Part shown: piece after piece, positions 943 through 17,165 of the stretch | Numbering within the stretch: the first letter of the stretch is position 1 | How the letters are laid out: the number at the start of each line of letters is the position of its first letter | From: a virus | Strand: one strand, 5' to 3' | Virus record (IMG/VR): IMGVR_UViG_3300048589_000028 | Location: 1 to 37,088 of that record | Length of the DNA: 37,088 nucleotides | Notes under the pieces: model-generated | Database searches by the model: none | The model's input: only the letters and a program-made list of their open reading frames with translations | Told to the model about the DNA's origin: nothing | Position numbers and translations under genes: made by a program

Positions 943-2994
943 TTACACCTTCCCCCTAAATTTGCCCCATTCTTTCGCCATATCCAAGCTATTCCACTCA
1001 TTTTCCAACCCGTAAAGTGCCCAGAGTCGCTTTGGCTGACCCTCCACTTTGACCAGCCGCCACCAAAATCCGTATTCTCGGAGCATCTGTCCCATGGCAT
1101 TTTTCAGCGCCGGTGTAACCCGCCCCATTGGATCATCCGATACATACGCGTGGGCCACCGCTTCTGGAGTGAGCACCCGCGCACCACGAAAGATTGGAGG
1201 CAGCACCTGCTCAGGGTCTTCCCGCAATAGGCGCACCCACTTTTCCAGTGGGCTACGTGTCGCGTCCGTAACCAGCTCCTTATCCGCAGTCTCCGGCGCC
1301 CATCCATTGGGGTCAAAGCCCGTGAGGTCGTACCCAAGAAGATAGTCATATAGCGCCGCCTGTCCCTCCACACTATTTGCCCATGCGAAGTACGGCACCC
1401 ATACCCCAGGGTCACGGCAGATGTTGGTACGCTCCCCAACGCGCAGCACAAGGCAGCGCCTGTCCCCCTCATCCAACTTGATGGCGTCCGCGTAGTTGCT
1501 CGTGGTAATCAAGTTGATGTGGTTGTTCACCGTGTATTCCCCTTTGCCCTTGCCGTTGACGGTGAGTTTGGGGGCGGTGGTCAGCATCTTGATTTTGTTG
1601 CCTATGGCCAGCCCGTCGCGGTCGTTGCCGCCGTGTAGCTCGTCCAGGTTGATAAACTGCTTGGTGGCGTAGACTTCGTTGAAATCGGAGGCGATGCGCT
1701 CGCGCCCTAATTGAATGCCATTGTCGCCATAGATGCCCAGCAGTGGAGTCAACAAAGCGTTCTTGCCGCCGCCGGGTGGGCCGTACATGTGGATGTATGT
1801 GTTCATCTTCGCACCAAGGTTCTGTAGCGGGTAGGCCAGCCACTGGCACAAGTAGCGGCGCAACCCTTGGGCGGGTACGCTGCGGGCCAGCAGGGCGCTC
1901 CACAAGGCCGTAGACCCGGCCTTTGGCTGCACACCCATACCGCGCCACAGGTTTAGGTATTCACCATCGACCAACGCAGCGCCCCCGGGCGTGTATTCCA
2001 TCCGCTCCACACTTCTCCTGCGCTCCCACGTCAACCAAGCCTTGGGCACGTTGACCTGCACTTCGGCATCCCCACGCTCCACCCATGCAACATAGTGGGC
2101 GTAGTTCATGTCGGTAAACTCGGCCTTGCCCATCATCGTGCCAGTTTCCTGCTCCACCACCCGCTTGATGTTGCGCACCACCACCACTTCCGCGTTCAAC
2201 TGGAGCTTGAGGGTGTCCATCTCGCTCATTTCAACGGGTGTTTCCTCCCCATTCTCCAACCAAGCCGCCGCATACTCGTACCCATGGTGGGCGCAAAAGT
2301 CGTCAAACCCCCACTCGCTCCCGTCTACGGGATTGCGGGGTAGCAGGTGATGCAGCACGTCAACGCCACAAATGAGCTTCATGCGCTCCGCAAAACGGCG
2401 TACCGCAAGGGCCACGTCATCATTCGTGGCGGCATCGCTGTCGAAGATGACCACACACCGGAGTTTCTTTGCCTTCCACGGCAGGTCTTTTAGCTGGGAC
2501 ACGAGTGCAATATCGTGCTTCTTGCTGCCCCAACCCCACACGCCATTCAACCCCACCGAATAAGTCCCGCACTTGGCCCCGTTGATGGCCTTCAAACAAG
2601 ACTCGTGGATGTAGATGGTGGACTCCGCCTCGATGGCCGTCCAGTCCAGTGTGGGGTCCAGGTAAGCGGCGGGGGCTTCCTTGGCGGGGCAAAACATCTT
2701 GATGCGCTTGGTGGGCACCAACGCGGCGAAGCCCCGCGGCGTGCTGGGCGTGGTAGATATGAGCCGAGCGCTCCACCAATCTATGGGCTCCCCCTGCATG
2801 TCGAAGTGGGGGAACACCACGCACATCCGCTCATCGCTTGTAAGCCCTATGTCGTGGGCCATACCTATCGTGAGCCCACGCGCTTCAATGTCCTCCGTCC
2901 CAACGCCGCGGTCGGCAAGGTATTTGTACACCCCGTTCAACCCTAGCTCGGTGACCATGCTGGTCATTTGAATGTCACTGTATCTCGTCTCCAC
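943..2994 (-). CDS. Primase-helicase (TOPRIM-like plus D5/SF3-type ATPase)
   Basis: This 683-residue replication protein probably primes and unwinds phage DNA. A TOPRIM-like part (about 125-235, DUF3854-like) has YIHESCLKA, with Glu131, and VIFDSDAATND, with Asp185/Asp187 as likely metal ligands. The helicase part has Walker A GPPGGGKN (405-412), with Asn where Ser/Thr is usual, Walker B INLDE (to 452) and a sensor-like LITTSN near 495-500. The D5-type helicase family is hexameric. The start is a GTG at 2994 with AAGGGG 6 bases upstream. It is the only replication gene on the minus strand, divergent from the early operon, and its end abuts the iteron cluster. Confidence 0.9.
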   Translation of the reverse strand: METRYSDIQMTSMVTELGLNGVYKYLADRGVGTEDIEARGLTIGMAHDIGLTSDERMCVVFPHFDMQGEPIDWWSARLISTTPSTPRGFAALVPTKRIKMFCPAKEAPAAYLDPTLDWTAIEAESTIYIHESCLKAINGAKCGTYSVGLNGVWGWGSKKHDIALVSQLKDLPWKAKKLRCVVIFDSDAATNDDVALAVRRFAERMKLICGVDVLHHLLPRNPVDGSEWGFDDFCAHHGYEYAAAWLENGEETPVEMSEMDTLKLQLNAEVVVVRNIKRVVEQETGTMMGKAEFTDMNYAHYVAWVERGDAEVQVNVPKAWLTWERRRSVERMEYTPGGAALVDGEYLNLWRGMGVQPKAGSTALWSALLARSVPAQGLRRYLCQWLAYPLQNLGAKMNTYIHMYGPPGGGKNALLTPLLGIYGDNGIQLGRERIASDFNEVYATKQFINLDELHGGNDRDGLAIGNKIKMLTTAPKLTVNGKGKGEYTVNNHINLITTSNYADAIKLDEGDRRCLVLRVGERTNICRDPGVWVPYFAWANSVEGQAALYDYLLGYDLTGFDPNGWAPETADKELVTDATRSPLEKWVRLLREDPEQVLPPIFRGARVLTPEAVAHAYVSDDPMGRVTPALKNAMGQMLREYGFWWRLVKVEGQPKRLWALYGLENEWNSLDMAKEWGKFRGKV

Positions 2995-13953: not shown

Positions 13954-13984
13954 AAATCCCTAGCTCTGAGAGTTAGGGATTTTT
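13954..13984 (+). terminator. Intrinsic terminator before the hypermodification cassette
   Basis: AAATCCCTA (13954-13962) pairs with TAGGGATTT (13974-13982), and the T-run extends to 13984. The loop contains CTCT/AGAG, which can extend the stem. The next gene starts at 14000, with its ribosome site at 13987-13991. No promoter fits between, so the downstream genes depend on read-through or on a promoter inside the upstream gene. Confidence 0.85.
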
Positions 13985-13999
13985 CCTGGAGAATTGACT

Positions 14000-14788
14000 A
14001 TGGACATTGTAATACCCACTCTGGGGCGCTGTGATATGGCTCGCCAGCACACCCTCCGACAATTGAACGCGGGGGGTCTCACCCCCACCATGGTCGTACA
14101 GCCCCACGAAGCCCGCTGGTGGCGGGGGCTGCACTCATTTTGGAAATTTGACGTACACACCCTGCCTGAGAACGTCAAGGGCATTGCAGCCACCCGAGAC
14201 TATATCATCCACGACATGCCCGGTAACGACCCTGTCTGCATGTTTGATGATGACCTCCACTTTGCCGTGCGCCGCGACGATGATCGCACCAAGTTCCGCC
14301 AGCCGGAGCCAGCCGACATTGCCCGCATGGTGGACAGCATCTACTTGGCCCTAGAACACTCCCCCCACGTGAGCATCGGCGCACGCGAAGGAGGCAATAG
14401 GGTCACAGAGGAGGTGTCTTTGAACACCCGCATGATGCGTGTGCTGGCCTACGACCGGCACGTGCTGCGCAAGCTGGGGATAACCTTCGCCCCCATGGAG
14501 GTGATGGAAGACTTTCACGTTACGCTCCAGCTTCTGCGGGCGGGGTGTGACTGCGCAGTGTTGAACAATTGGGTCAGCAACCAAGCCGGGGGCAGCGACG
14601 CACCCGGAGGCTGCTCCACATTCCGCACGCTGGAGGTGCAGTCCCGCAATGCACATCTACTGGCCGCGCGACACCCGGGCTTCGTAAAGGCGGTGAAGAA
14701 GCAGACTAAGACGGCGTGGGGTGGGCAGGAACGTACGGACGTTGTGGTGCAGTGGAAGCAAGCCCGCAAGGCAGGAGGTGTGAAATGA
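14000..14788 (+). CDS. GT-A fold glycosyltransferase
   Basis: This 262-residue enzyme starts like a family 2-type nucleotide-sugar transferase (MDIVIPTLGRCDMARQHTL). It has a metal-binding acidic motif, CMFDDDLHF (Asp83-85), after an ATRDYII segment. A later PMEVMEDFHVTLQLL contains the acidic ED expected of the catalytic base. The sugar donor and acceptor cannot be read from sequence. Because it is cotranscribed with an aGPT-PPlase homologue and a thymidylate synthase homologue, glycosylation of a modified DNA base is the likely role (inference). The start is ATG 14000, with TGGAG 8 bases upstream; a TTG at 13994 is less likely. Confidence 0.8.
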   Translation: MDIVIPTLGRCDMARQHTLRQLNAGGLTPTMVVQPHEARWWRGLHSFWKFDVHTLPENVKGIAATRDYIIHDMPGNDPVCMFDDDLHFAVRRDDDRTKFRQPEPADIARMVDSIYLALEHSPHVSIGAREGGNRVTEEVSLNTRMMRVLAYDRHVLRKLGITFAPMEVMEDFHVTLQLLRAGCDCAVLNNWVSNQAGGSDAPGGCSTFRTLEVQSRNAHLLAARHPGFVKAVKKQTKTAWGGQERTDVVVQWKQARKAGGVK

Positions 14789-15606
14789 CCATGTCCGAAC
14801 AGATGGCATACTGGATTACCGAGCGCGAGGCGATGCGGATGCGCAAAGAGTCCGGCAGAAAGCCTGAGTGGAAGCATGGCTGGAGTGACGACCCTTACAT
14901 GGGCAAAGTGCGCTATTGCAACGTCCACCGCGAAGATGACAAGGTTACGCGGTGGCTTGCTGACAATTGGCGTGGCGAATGGAACGCCCCCTGGCAGATT
15001 GTGCTGGCCCGCATGGTGAACTACATCCCTACACTGGGTGCCCTCAGCGATCACTGGGCCTTCCACGATGACGTCAGCATAGCCCGCGCAACTTGGAGGA
15101 TGAAAAACTTGCGAAGTGAGGGCAAGAAGGTTTGGACCAGCGCATATACCATATCTACTTGTGGACAGACAATTGATAAGATTGACTACGTCATGGGTGT
15201 GGTGCGTAGCGTGGAACAGGCTTGGCAGACCCCCAACGTCAACACGCTGGCCCAGTGGCACAGTCAGCTCACCACATTCAAGGGGTTAGGCAGTTTCCTC
15301 GCCGCGCAAGTGGTGGCGGACTTGAAGAATACCCCACATCACCTACTGACGCGGGCACCGGACTGGCGTGCGTGGTCGGCTCCCGGCCCCGGCAGCTTGA
15401 AGGGGCTGTCCGAGTACTTCCAGCGCAATGTGACCCCCGCCACCTACCAGACGCATATCGCGGCGTGCTGGGCGGAGGTTAAGCCCCTGCTGCCCCCGGA
15501 ACTACAAGACCAGCACATGCAAGACTTCCAGAATTGCTTGTGCGAATTCAGCAAGTTTATGAGAGTACGAAAGGGTGGACATGTCCGCAACAAGTATCAA
15601 GCCTGA
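14785..15606 (+). CDS. aGPT-PPlase-like DNA base hypermodification enzyme
   Basis: This 273-residue protein resembles the alpha-glutamyl/putrescinyl thymine pyrophosphorylase families, predicted from phages such as SP10 and phiW-14 to act in thymine hypermodification. Motifs are RYCNVHREDDKVTRW (43-57), AYTISTCGQTIDK (120-132), a helix-hairpin-helix-like FKGLGSFLAAQVVADL (165-180), APGPGSLKGL (199-208) and NCLCEFSKF (250-258). Members are thought to attach an amino acid or amine to an activated 5-hydroxymethylpyrimidine in DNA, which needs a kinase step. I found no 5-hmdU DNA kinase here. ATG 14785 follows AGGAGGTG and overlaps the glycosyltransferase stop. Confidence 0.85.
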   Translation: MTMSEQMAYWITEREAMRMRKESGRKPEWKHGWSDDPYMGKVRYCNVHREDDKVTRWLADNWRGEWNAPWQIVLARMVNYIPTLGALSDHWAFHDDVSIARATWRMKNLRSEGKKVWTSAYTISTCGQTIDKIDYVMGVVRSVEQAWQTPNVNTLAQWHSQLTTFKGLGSFLAAQVVADLKNTPHHLLTRAPDWRAWSAPGPGSLKGLSEYFQRNVTPATYQTHIAACWAEVKPLLPPELQDQHMQDFQNCLCEFSKFMRVRKGGHVRNKYQA

Positions 15607-15775
15607 CCCCGTGGGGCGTGTGCGCATAATTGGCAAGGTGCACGGCGCTATGAATACGATAGTGCAGTACGCCGACGACCCAGAAGATTGGATGTTCAAG
15701 CAGTTTGTTTCTCAGGATCAGCTTGAAGCATTTGCCACTGAGGAAAACCTAACCATTGAGGAGAATGCAGAATGA
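15581..15775 (+). CDS. Small protein within the hypermodification cassette, 64 aa
   Basis: The ATG at 15581 has AAGGG 6-8 bases upstream and overlaps the aGPT-PPlase gene by 26 bases. Its stop overlaps the thymidylate synthase homologue start (ATGA). The peptide has a beta-rich N-terminal half (GRVRIIGKVHGAMNTIVQY) and an acidic C-terminal half (DQLEAFATEENLTIEENAE). It is not recognised. Coupling to genes on both sides suggests a stoichiometric partner or regulator of the modification enzymes, which is inference. Confidence 0.65.
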   Translation: MSATSIKPDPVGRVRIIGKVHGAMNTIVQYADDPEDWMFKQFVSQDQLEAFATEENLTIEENAE

Positions 15776-16740
15776 ATGTAATCAAGGTAAAGAATGTGAA
15801 CCAAGCCTTGCACGAGGGGCTGTGGCTGTTGCGGACCATTGGGGTGCGTGAGGATAGCCGCAATGGCCCCGTGCTGGTGGCCCCCGGCCCTGTAGCTACC
15901 ATCTACACCCACCCGTGGGAGCGCGTGCTGTTCCATCCCGGACGGGACGCCAACCCTGTGTTTCATCTGGTCGAGGCTTTGTGGATGCTTGCGGGGCGGG
16001 ATACCGTGGCGGACATTTCCCCATTCAACTCTGGCATCGCCCGCTACGCGGAAGACAATGGCCGCATCCACGGGGCGTATGGGCACCGCTGGCGCAACCG
16101 CTTTCAGATTGATCAAGTGCTGGGCGTGATTAAAGAGCTGAAGACCAGCCCCAACAGCCGCCGCGCTGTGATGGGTATGTGGTCCCCCCACATTGACCTT
16201 GGGGCTGACAAGCGTGACCTGCCGTGCAATACCCACGCCTACTTCGACCTGCGTGGGGGCAAGCTGAACATGACGGTGTGCTGCCGTAGCAACGACATTA
16301 TTTGGGGTGCATACGGGGCGAACGCTGTGCATTTCAGCATCTTGCAGGAGCTGATTGCCGTGGGGGTGGATGCCCCCATTGGGGAATATATCCAGTTCAG
16401 CAACAACTACCACGCCTACACGGAGAACGAGGTGTACAAGCGCCTTGACCCCATTGAGGCCGATGGTCCTGACCCATACCGCGACCCCGCCATCCGGTGG
16501 AGGCCCCTGCTGGCCGAGGGGGGGACTGTGGAGCAGTTTCTACGGGACTGCGAAGATATGTTTGACTGGCCAGCCAGCAGATACCGCACTGCGTTCTTCA
16601 ACGAAGTTGCATCTCCACTGGCCCGCAACTATCTGGCCCGCAAGGCCGGGGGTCGCATGATGCCCGTTGCCTCCTGTGATTGGGCCGTGGCATTTGGCGA
16701 GTGGTGTGAGCGCCGCGAAAGTTTGGAGGTGGGAAAATGA
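15772..16740 (+). CDS. Thymidylate synthase homologue, probable dUMP hydroxymethylase
   Basis: The protein has thymidylate synthase-family features: nucleophile Cys152 in DLPCNTHAYF, phosphate-binding RSND (172-175), Asn184 in WGAYGANAVHF, and HAY (214-216). Asn at the base-recognition position favours dUMP; dCMP hydroxymethylases usually have Asp. The sequence is the phage-type branch, much diverged from ordinary ThyA, and at 322 residues it is longer than E. coli ThyA (264). With an aGPT-PPlase neighbour, making 5-hydroxymethyl-dUMP is more likely than dTMP, though ordinary thymidylate synthesis cannot be excluded. ATG 15772 has GAGGAG upstream. Confidence 0.85.
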   Translation: MNVIKVKNVNQALHEGLWLLRTIGVREDSRNGPVLVAPGPVATIYTHPWERVLFHPGRDANPVFHLVEALWMLAGRDTVADISPFNSGIARYAEDNGRIHGAYGHRWRNRFQIDQVLGVIKELKTSPNSRRAVMGMWSPHIDLGADKRDLPCNTHAYFDLRGGKLNMTVCCRSNDIIWGAYGANAVHFSILQELIAVGVDAPIGEYIQFSNNYHAYTENEVYKRLDPIEADGPDPYRDPAIRWRPLLAEGGTVEQFLRDCEDMFDWPASRYRTAFFNEVASPLARNYLARKAGGRMMPVASCDWAVAFGEWCERRESLEVGK

Positions 16741-17165
16741 GCGACGCAAACAAGACCCAAGTGGGTGGCAATCACTACGCGCAGCAGGACAAGCCTCAAC
16801 ACTGGGACTTGTCAATCATGTACGGGTGGGATCCATTCCAGTATCAGGTGACCAAGTACGTCATGCGGTGGAAGGACAAGCATCCCACGCCAGAGAAGAA
16901 GCTGGAAGACCTGAAGAAGGCCCGCCACTTCTTGGACAAGTACATAGAGAACTACGCGCGGTTCCTGCCACAAGTGCAGCCCATGCCGGAGCCCGCCTTT
17001 GCGGACATGCTGTTCCTAAGCCCCGGGGGTGCTGAGGCGGATGACAATGCCTACTGGCAGATGGAGGGCATGTATGGTGATGGTACTCAGCTCTACACCT
17101 GCCGCAAGTGCAAGTCCACAACCCGTGGCGCGCATGCGCCCGGCCACCCCCATGCATGCCCCTAG
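16737..17165 (+). CDS. DUF3310 protein, putative nucleotide kinase, with C-terminal Cys/His motif
   Basis: Residues 8-72 match DUF3310: GGNHYAQQ, then FQYQVTKYVMRWKDKHP and EDLKKARHFLDKYI. T7 gp1.7, which contains this domain, phosphorylates dGMP and dTMP without a classic Walker motif. Here it could phosphorylate dTMP or hydroxymethyl-dUMP made by the upstream enzyme, feeding modified triphosphate to the polymerase. The C-terminus adds TCRKCKS (Cys122, Cys125) and GHPHACP (His137, His139, Cys141), a possible zinc site; T7 gp1.7 has a Cys cluster at the other end. It overlaps the preceding stop by ATGA. Confidence 0.82.
   Translation: MSDANKTQVGGNHYAQQDKPQHWDLSIMYGWDPFQYQVTKYVMRWKDKHPTPEKKLEDLKKARHFLDKYIENYARFLPQVQPMPEPAFADMLFLSPGGAEADDNAYWQMEGMYGDGTQLYTCRKCKSTTRGAHAPGHPHACP

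Follow-up and report, generated by a model that had tools for sequence, protein, structure and literature searches.

What would a phage attach to its thymine when a glycosyltransferase gene stands next to a gene of the thymidine-hypermodification pathways? The question arose from a sequence-only reading of the window (the whole 37,088-nucleotide stretch of viral DNA analyzed here, IMG/VR record IMGVR_UViG_3300048589_000028), in which five overlapping genes were taken to make 5-hydroxymethyldeoxyuridine (5-hmdU) and to decorate it with a sugar, an amino compound, or both. Our analysis favors the sugar: we put the probability at roughly 0.65 that the cassette carries out thymine glycosylation, with 5-hmdU predicted to be made, incorporated, presented by an HMUDK_hel protein and glycosylated in DNA by a TAGT enzyme. 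The observations that support this reading are the gene content, the mutual exclusion of alternative partner genes, the partner changes in the HMUDK_hel tree, an invariant asparagine and the predicted folds.

Layout of the cassette

The five open reading frames (ORFs) were found where they had been placed, on the same strand, and are tightly packed or overlapping (Table 1). The HMUDK_hel start codon overlaps the stop codon of the glycosyltransferase gene (ATGA overlap), the thymidylate synthase (TS) homologue starts within the 64-aa ORF, and the DUF3310-like gene starts within the TS gene. For the glycosyltransferase, a TTG start at 13994 was set aside in favor of the likely start, ATG 14000, which is preceded by GGAG at 13988-13991.

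Table 1. Features of the cassette, with the evidence for each and its proposed role
Feature	Coordinates	Strand	Evidence and proposed role
TAGT glycosyltransferase (GT-A fold)	14000..14788	+	PF20691, phrog_842, AF2 model; proposed sugar transfer to 5-hmdU in DNA
HMUDK_hel protein (aGPT-PPlase clade 1), helical	14785..15606	+	PF18723, AF2 model; proposed 5-hmdU-presenting subunit
64-aa ORF, no family match	15581..15775 (alternative start 15575)	+	similar ORF in relatives
TS homologue, predicted dUMP 5-hydroxymethylase	15772..16740	+	PF00303, phrog_5131, Asn residue
DUF3310-like protein, possible T7 gp1.7-type 5-hmdUMP kinase	16737..17165	+	phrog_5839, phrog_236

The enzyme set had been described as unusual; rather than being peculiar to one phage, it recurs in dozens of others. 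The gene order TAGT-HMUDK_hel-TS-DUF3310 was observed in 61 of the loci that were fetched (redundant loci counted), which is far beyond chance. The 64-aa ORF had no Pfam score near the cut-off and no PHROG match in profile searches, and about ten relatives have a counterpart at the same site (L009, L022, L024, L025, L029, L030, L107, L109, L111).

The glycosyltransferase belongs to the TAGT family

In a Pfam profile search, the first protein scored 54.2 bits against TAGT (TET-associated glycosyltransferase, PF20691; curated cut-off 27.5), and it matched phrog_842 in PHROGs with an E-value of 4e-42. The top Foldseek matches of its AF2 model (pLDDT 94) were GT2-type GT-A enzymes (e.g., TarS, E 1e-6), and its DDD motif (residues 85-87, numbered from 13994) is invariant in 49 homologues. 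A score above the cut-off, a GT-A fold and a conserved acidic motif place the protein among the TAGTs, so that the GT-A glycosyltransferase first proposed from sequence is borne out by structure prediction and now has a family. Searches of PDB sequences gave no relatives of this protein or of gene 2.

The TAGTs characterized so far act on (glucosyl-)5-hmC, i.e., in 5-hmdC pathways (PMC13216743; PMC13390438). T4 beta-GT was found to glucosylate 5-hmU in duplex DNA only if the base was mispaired with G (PMC4111573), and this requirement is a reason why a base-presenting partner may be needed.

TAGT and kinase genes exclude each other

Profile searches of the 37-kb record gave no match to the 5-hmdU DNA kinase (PF18748) or to ADDT (PF18724), with phage M6 as a positive control, and the earlier remark that no such kinase is visible therefore holds for the whole record. 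A kinase could exist outside the record, which is possibly incomplete; the pattern over 45 TAGT records argues against it, as whole-record searches found kinase or ADDT in none of them (M6, W03, was positive for both). TAGT was likewise found in none of the 49 other HMUDK_hel records. The kinase was present in 16 of 49 HMUDK_hel records, a set that largely overlaps with those 49.

The kinase is also not the oddly missing part that it had seemed to be, because in relatives TAGT and kinase genes are alternatives adjoining the same HMUDK_hel gene. Among non-redundant viral-contig loci that were ascertained by HMUDK_hel and have a TS gene, 24 had TAGT only, 16 had the kinase only, 12 had neither and none had both (Fisher p 3e-6, relatedness ignored). 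When loci were instead ascertained by TAGT, HMUDK_hel was nearby in 77/80 and the kinase in 0/80. HMUDK_hel had a small P-loop ORF in its vicinity at 18 of 19 kinase loci, versus 2 of 66 TAGT loci. In seven non-redundant loci with neither gene, a GT-B-type glycosyltransferase gene occupied the same place; L031 and L046 were rejected as GT-B loci, since the neighboring gene had no Pfam or PHROG match and could not be aligned with the GT-B groups. The HMUDK_hel tree requires about 19 changes of partner, and in it a TAGT locus (L067) is sister to a GT-B locus (L077) with 99% SH-aLRT and 68% identity.

The HMUDK_hel protein

Gene 2 scored 112.4 bits against HMUDK_hel (PF18723, cut-off 25) over residues 4-262 of its 273 aa. 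We take this family to belong to 5-hmdU pathways, and clade 2 of the aGPT-PPlases (ADDT, PF18724) to be an amino-acid:DNA transferase. The aGPT-PPlase kinship claimed for gene 2 was thus confirmed by the clade profiles, as clade 1, and membership of clade 2, which attaches amino compounds to DNA, was not. As ADDT is also absent from the record, a role for gene 2 as an amino-compound transferase was rejected, and chemistry of the alpha-glutamyl or alpha-putrescinyl type is not indicated. From the original proposal, a 5-hmdU-based cassette with a sugar as the likely decoration is retained as a prediction, and the amino compound is not.

A scan of viral contigs with the single gene 2 sequence gave no relatives; an alignment-based scan did find them. 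A scan of genome contigs yielded just one, carried by a Methylobacter MAG contig. HMUDK_hel also occurs without TS at 15 loci, which form one separate clade and some of which adjoin DNA methyltransferases; these loci were excluded from the argument.

The AF2 model of HMUDK_hel (pLDDT 92) has a DNA-glycosylase-like fold, with VIA-align scores of Z 10.2 to the glycinyltransferase PUGT of PaMx11 and Z 8-9 to HhH DNA glycosylases. These matches are of moderate strength (best Z 10; Foldseek E > 0.1), so base flipping by HMUDK_hel is a guess from the fold. Such matches would also suit a protein that is an enzyme in its own right, either a transferase like PUGT or a base-acting glycosylase, in which case the glycosyltransferase would add sugar to its product and not to bare 5-hmdU. 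In favor of this, Asp179, Asp193 and other polar residues never vary among 50 homologues, and a radical-SAM enzyme is present in many TAGT cassettes, making several steps possible. We nevertheless consider this rather unlikely, because the family is found in the company of kinases, of TAGTs and of GT-Bs, and a common role in presenting the substrate would account for this more easily. A second argument against it is phage ctUhy936 (L002), a complete circular genome with TAGT and TS and no HMUDK_hel. Two contigs, of 9 and 20 kb, have the same two genes without it. HMUDK_hel is thus not always needed, a point that also counts against the pathway that we propose.

The TS homologue and the DUF3310-like protein

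The TS homologue scored 75 bits against Thymidylat_synt (PF00303) in Pfam, matched phrog_5131 with E 6e-96, and is 43% identical to the M6/YuA enzyme (tblastn). It retains Cys146 (E. coli numbering), has Asn instead of His147, and lacks Trp80. The loss of Trp80 was not used as proof of a hydroxymethylase, since the dCMP hydroxymethylase in the alignment still has Trp. Asn184 aligns with the dUMP-reading Asn177 of E. coli, as had been claimed, and comparison with dUMP and dCMP enzymes points to M6-type kinship; the protein is a predicted dUMP hydroxymethylase of the M6 type.

This residue bears on a second possibility, that the TS homologue hydroxymethylates dCMP and that 5-hmdC is the target of TAGT, as in T-even phages. 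The known TAGTs operate in such pathways, and in Brevibacterium phage LuckyBarnes a similar gene set was annotated as cytosine modification, with a "predicted dCMP-hydroxymethylase" (PMC6588365). However, T-even cytosine glucosylation would call for a dCMP-type (non-Asn) enzyme, and the dUMP-reading Asn is present in the window enzyme and in 107/107 TS homologues of TAGT loci, LuckyBarnes included. The enzyme is nearest to the M6 type, and its partner HMUDK_hel, a protein of 5-hmdU pathways, was not found in the cytosine phage CC31. Cytosine glycosylation is, in our judgment, improbable. A reading in which the TS homologue makes dTMP in the ordinary way and the glycosyltransferase targets capsule, teichoic acid or protein, as its similarity to the teichoic-acid enzyme TarS might suggest, is very improbable, given a TS of the M6 hydroxymethylase family without the His147 and Trp80 of E. 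coli ThyA and a TAGT linkage to a 5-hmdU-pathway protein that is constant over about 66 non-redundant loci.

The DUF3310-like protein reached 15 bits against Pfam DUF3310 (PF11753), under the cut-off of 24, and matched phrog_5839 (E 3.5e-17) and phrog_236 (nucleotide kinase, T7-type; E 4e-9). The nucleotide kinase proposed earlier is therefore supported by PHROGs and not by Pfam.

A proposed pathway and its relation to known systems

In the thymine glycosylation that we propose, the TS homologue would convert dUMP to 5-hydroxymethyl-dUMP, as its homology and Asn residue suggest. The DUF3310-like protein and host kinases would then raise this to the triphosphate, for incorporation by the phage DNA polymerase. 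HMUDK_hel, judging from fold and context, would bind and probably flip out 5-hmdU in duplex DNA, and TAGT would use a nucleotide sugar to glycosylate the oxygen of the 5-hydroxymethyl group, which would yield an O-glycosylated thymine like base J. A 5-hmdU DNA kinase or amino-acid transferase would not be needed, because the hydroxyl is glycosylated directly. HMUDK_hel may be a module common to the kinase or glycosyltransferase, both acting on one substrate. We see an even chance for the broader idea that it is an exchangeable 5-hmdU-presenting subunit (for kinase, GT-A TAGT or GT-B) and that a large group of phages employs it to glycosylate 5-hmdU directly, as a counterpart of base J.

With thymidine hypermodification in M6/YuA (also PaMx11, ViI and phiW-14), the cassette shares the dUMP-hydroxymethylase-type TS, the adjoining HMUDK_hel and a DUF3310-like gene close by; it differs in lacking kinase, ADDT and Nmad5, with TAGT adjoining HMUDK_hel instead. 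T-even 5-hmdC glucosylation (gp42, alpha/beta-GT and TAGT) has in common the TAGT family and a nearby pyrimidine-hydroxymethylase gene, whereas the cassette has an Asn/dUMP-type TS, an HMUDK_hel and no alpha/beta-GT recognized among the genes examined. The predicted product class, O-glycosylated 5-hydroxymethyluracil, is that of kinetoplastid base J, in which JBP oxygenases act in DNA, in contrast to the nucleotide-level 5-hmdU predicted here. Tet_JBP (PF12851) had no match in the record, but the control search likewise gave none. The cultured phage LuckyBarnes shares TS, TAGT and HMUDK_hel, and its whole genome has no kinase or ADDT; it differs in its gene order (TS-TAGT-TAGT-HMUDK_hel), with two TAGT genes, and in a longer TS protein.

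In the literature examined, we found no report of sugar-bearing 5-hmdU in phage DNA, although an earlier mention of a glycosyltransferase with HMUDK_hel is possible. The name HMUDK_hel is possibly too narrow, as most surveyed loci lack the kinase. For this group of TAGTs, 5-hmdU in DNA can now be named as the predicted substrate and HMUDK_hel as the partner, and LuckyBarnes offers a cultured phage with the same families in which the prediction of thymine glycosylation can be checked. If the prediction is true, an enzyme pair that glycosylates thymine directly would be a useful tool to label 5-hmU in DNA.

Cassette genes and families

The five genes proposed in the sequence-only reading of the window, a 37,088-base virus record that also carries portal, terminase and major head genes, were all found on the plus strand, packed end to end. 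The glycosyltransferase gene is present as described, but its start is more likely at ATG 14000, behind a GGAG, than at TTG 13994. Its product is a TET-associated glycosyltransferase (TAGT; Pfam PF20691, 54 bits against a cut-off of 27.5), and an identical TAGT (100%) occurs on a 6-kb viral contig from a different record. The second gene matched HMUDK_hel at 112 bits (Pfam PF18723). This “helical domain” takes its name from 5-hmdU DNA kinases and corresponds to the aGPT-PPlase1 clade of older annotations. The thymidylate synthase (TS) homologue matched Thymidylat_synt and phrog_5131, and the last gene had a weak DUF3310 match and PHROG links to nucleotide kinases.

Features of the window and of comparison loci
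Feature	Record	Positions	Strand	Remark
Inverted repeat	window	13954-13984		AAATCCCTA ... TAGGGATTT; perfect, 9 bp, overlaps T run, just upstream of cassette; terminator-like; 11-nt loop, over the limit of the automated repeat scan and hence unlisted there
TAGT	window	14000-14788	+	
HMUDK_hel	window	14785-15606	+	
64-aa ORF	window	15581-15775	+	matches no known family; kept in about ten relatives
TS homologue	window	15772-16740	+	
DUF3310-like	window	16737-17165	+	
Walker-A ORF	window	1107-1508	-	probably not a gene
Identical TAGT	L008	5211-6002		
HMUDK_hel overlapping PF18751 gene	L169 (Microbacterium phage Sinatra)	1365-2838		
TAGT-radical-SAM/SPASM fusion, one ORF	L053	3318-5060		adjoins HMUDK_hel
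TS-less HMUDK_hel clade	L055, L064-L066, L071, L074-L076, L078, L079, L081-L085, L097			
Separate radical-SAM genes (examples)	L069, L087, L095, L118, L134, L142, L145, L146			

TAGT and kinase as alternatives

Phage M6 encodes its pathway in separate genes: ADDT (aGPT-PPlase2, gp51), the 5-hmdU DNA kinase (PF18748, gp54), HMUDK_hel (gp55), Nmad5 (gp56) and TS (gp58). The window shares only HMUDK_hel and TS with this set, and its second gene, called aGPT-PPlase-like in the sequence-only reading, is not the ADDT (amino acid:DNA transferase). The kinase had been reported as not visible, and neither PF18748 nor ADDT had any match across the window record in searches in which M6 was positive. A simple pattern search, which overlooks variant forms (the window's own helicase has one), picked up Walker-A solely in a minus-strand ORF.

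We scanned viral contigs with alignments as queries and obtained 80 HMUDK_hel and 80 TAGT loci, in which genes were called by profiles built for this study. The order TAGT-HMUDK_hel-TS-DUF3310 was seen in 61 loci, with several permutations elsewhere, and TAGT and kinase never shared a surveyed locus. Among the 52 non-redundant loci with TS found via HMUDK_hel, and so without ascertainment on TAGT, 24 had only TAGT, 16 only the kinase, none both and 12 neither (p = 3e-6 in a Fisher test that ignores relatedness). In whole-record Pfam searches, TAGT records held no kinase (0/45) or ADDT (0/45), and no TAGT was found elsewhere in HMUDK_hel records lacking one nearby (0/49); the kinase occurred in 16/49 HMUDK_hel records, a set largely overlapping the latter. 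Single absences carry little weight because many records are fragments; the overall pattern carries more. Where TAGT lay upstream (49 non-redundant loci), HMUDK_hel followed within 60 nt in 40 cases, as would be expected of a pair produced together.

In seven of the 12 “neither” loci the corresponding position is taken by a GT-B-type gene, from two families related by profile (Glycos_transf_1/Glyco_trans_1_2), and thus a glycosyltransferase of either fold is present in most of the HMUDK_hel + TS loci that do not belong to the kinase group. Two more had a neighbour without family assignment. On the HMUDK_hel tree, where the GT-B label takes in these two, partners must change about 19 times, where 4 would be the fewest possible; for TAGT, the starred branches by themselves require 4 changes or more. 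The clearest switch is L067 (two TAGTs), sister to L077 (GT-B; 99% SH-aLRT, HMUDK_hel 68% identical). L050, which groups with the GT-B loci L056/L058 (73–74% identity), has partner genes that are kinase-like and ADDT-like by our profiles and weak in Pfam.

A well-supported, separate HMUDK_hel clade lacks TS, kinase and TAGT, and some members adjoin a DNA methyltransferase (Dam, L083; MT-A70, L085; C5-MTase, L097). In phage Sinatra the overlapping gene encodes a different P-loop kinase family, a further kind of partner. Besides the fusion in L053, about a dozen more TAGT or GT-B cassettes have radical-SAM genes, which suggests additional processing of base or sugar.

TS specificity and folds

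An Asn-type TS had been claimed, and in alignments to ThyA of E. coli and to the dCMP hydroxymethylase of CC31 (redundant loci included) Asn occupied the E. coli Asn177 position in 107/107 TAGT-locus homologues, and in all those of kinase and GT-B loci. Throughout these three groups Cys146, the catalytic residue, was invariant and His147 was replaced by Asn. The window enzyme is nearest to M6/YuA-type enzymes (43%); this closeness and the Asn point to dUMP as substrate. M6 DNA contains bases derived from 5-hmdU (PMC6449724), and kinship to the M6 enzyme leads us to infer that the homologue would hydroxymethylate rather than methylate.

The TAGT model (pLDDT 94) matched GT2-type GT-A enzymes (TarS, E 1e-6). 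For the HMUDK_hel model (pLDDT 92) Foldseek found no significant match; the top VIA-align matches were PaMx11 PUGT (Z 10.2) and then many HhH DNA glycosylases (Z 8–9), whose folds flip bases. Residues 167-180, GLGSFLAAQVVADL, read like a helix-hairpin-helix motif, and Asp193, invariant among homologues, may equal the glycosylase Asp. In duplex DNA, T4 beta-GT glucosylates 5-hmU only when it is mispaired with G (PMC4111573), so a partner presenting A-paired 5-hmdU would make sense.

Proposed pathway

We propose that the TS homologue would convert dUMP to 5-hm-dUMP, which the DUF3310-like protein and host kinases would raise to the triphosphate for incorporation into DNA, where HMUDK_hel would present 5-hmdU and TAGT would add a sugar. 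A strict need for HMUDK_hel is argued against by ctUhy936, a complete circular phage, and two contigs, which have TAGT and TS without it. PMC13216743 (2026) says of solitary TAGTs that they “potentially encode novel transferases”. The cultured Brevibacterium phage LuckyBarnes carries TS-TAGT-TAGT-HMUDK_hel, a cluster that its published annotation treats as a system with a dCMP hydroxymethylase (PMC6588365); the LuckyBarnes TS has Asn at the dUMP-reading position. We rate the TAGT-HMUDK_hel-TS cassette as a variant within known thymidine hypermodification.
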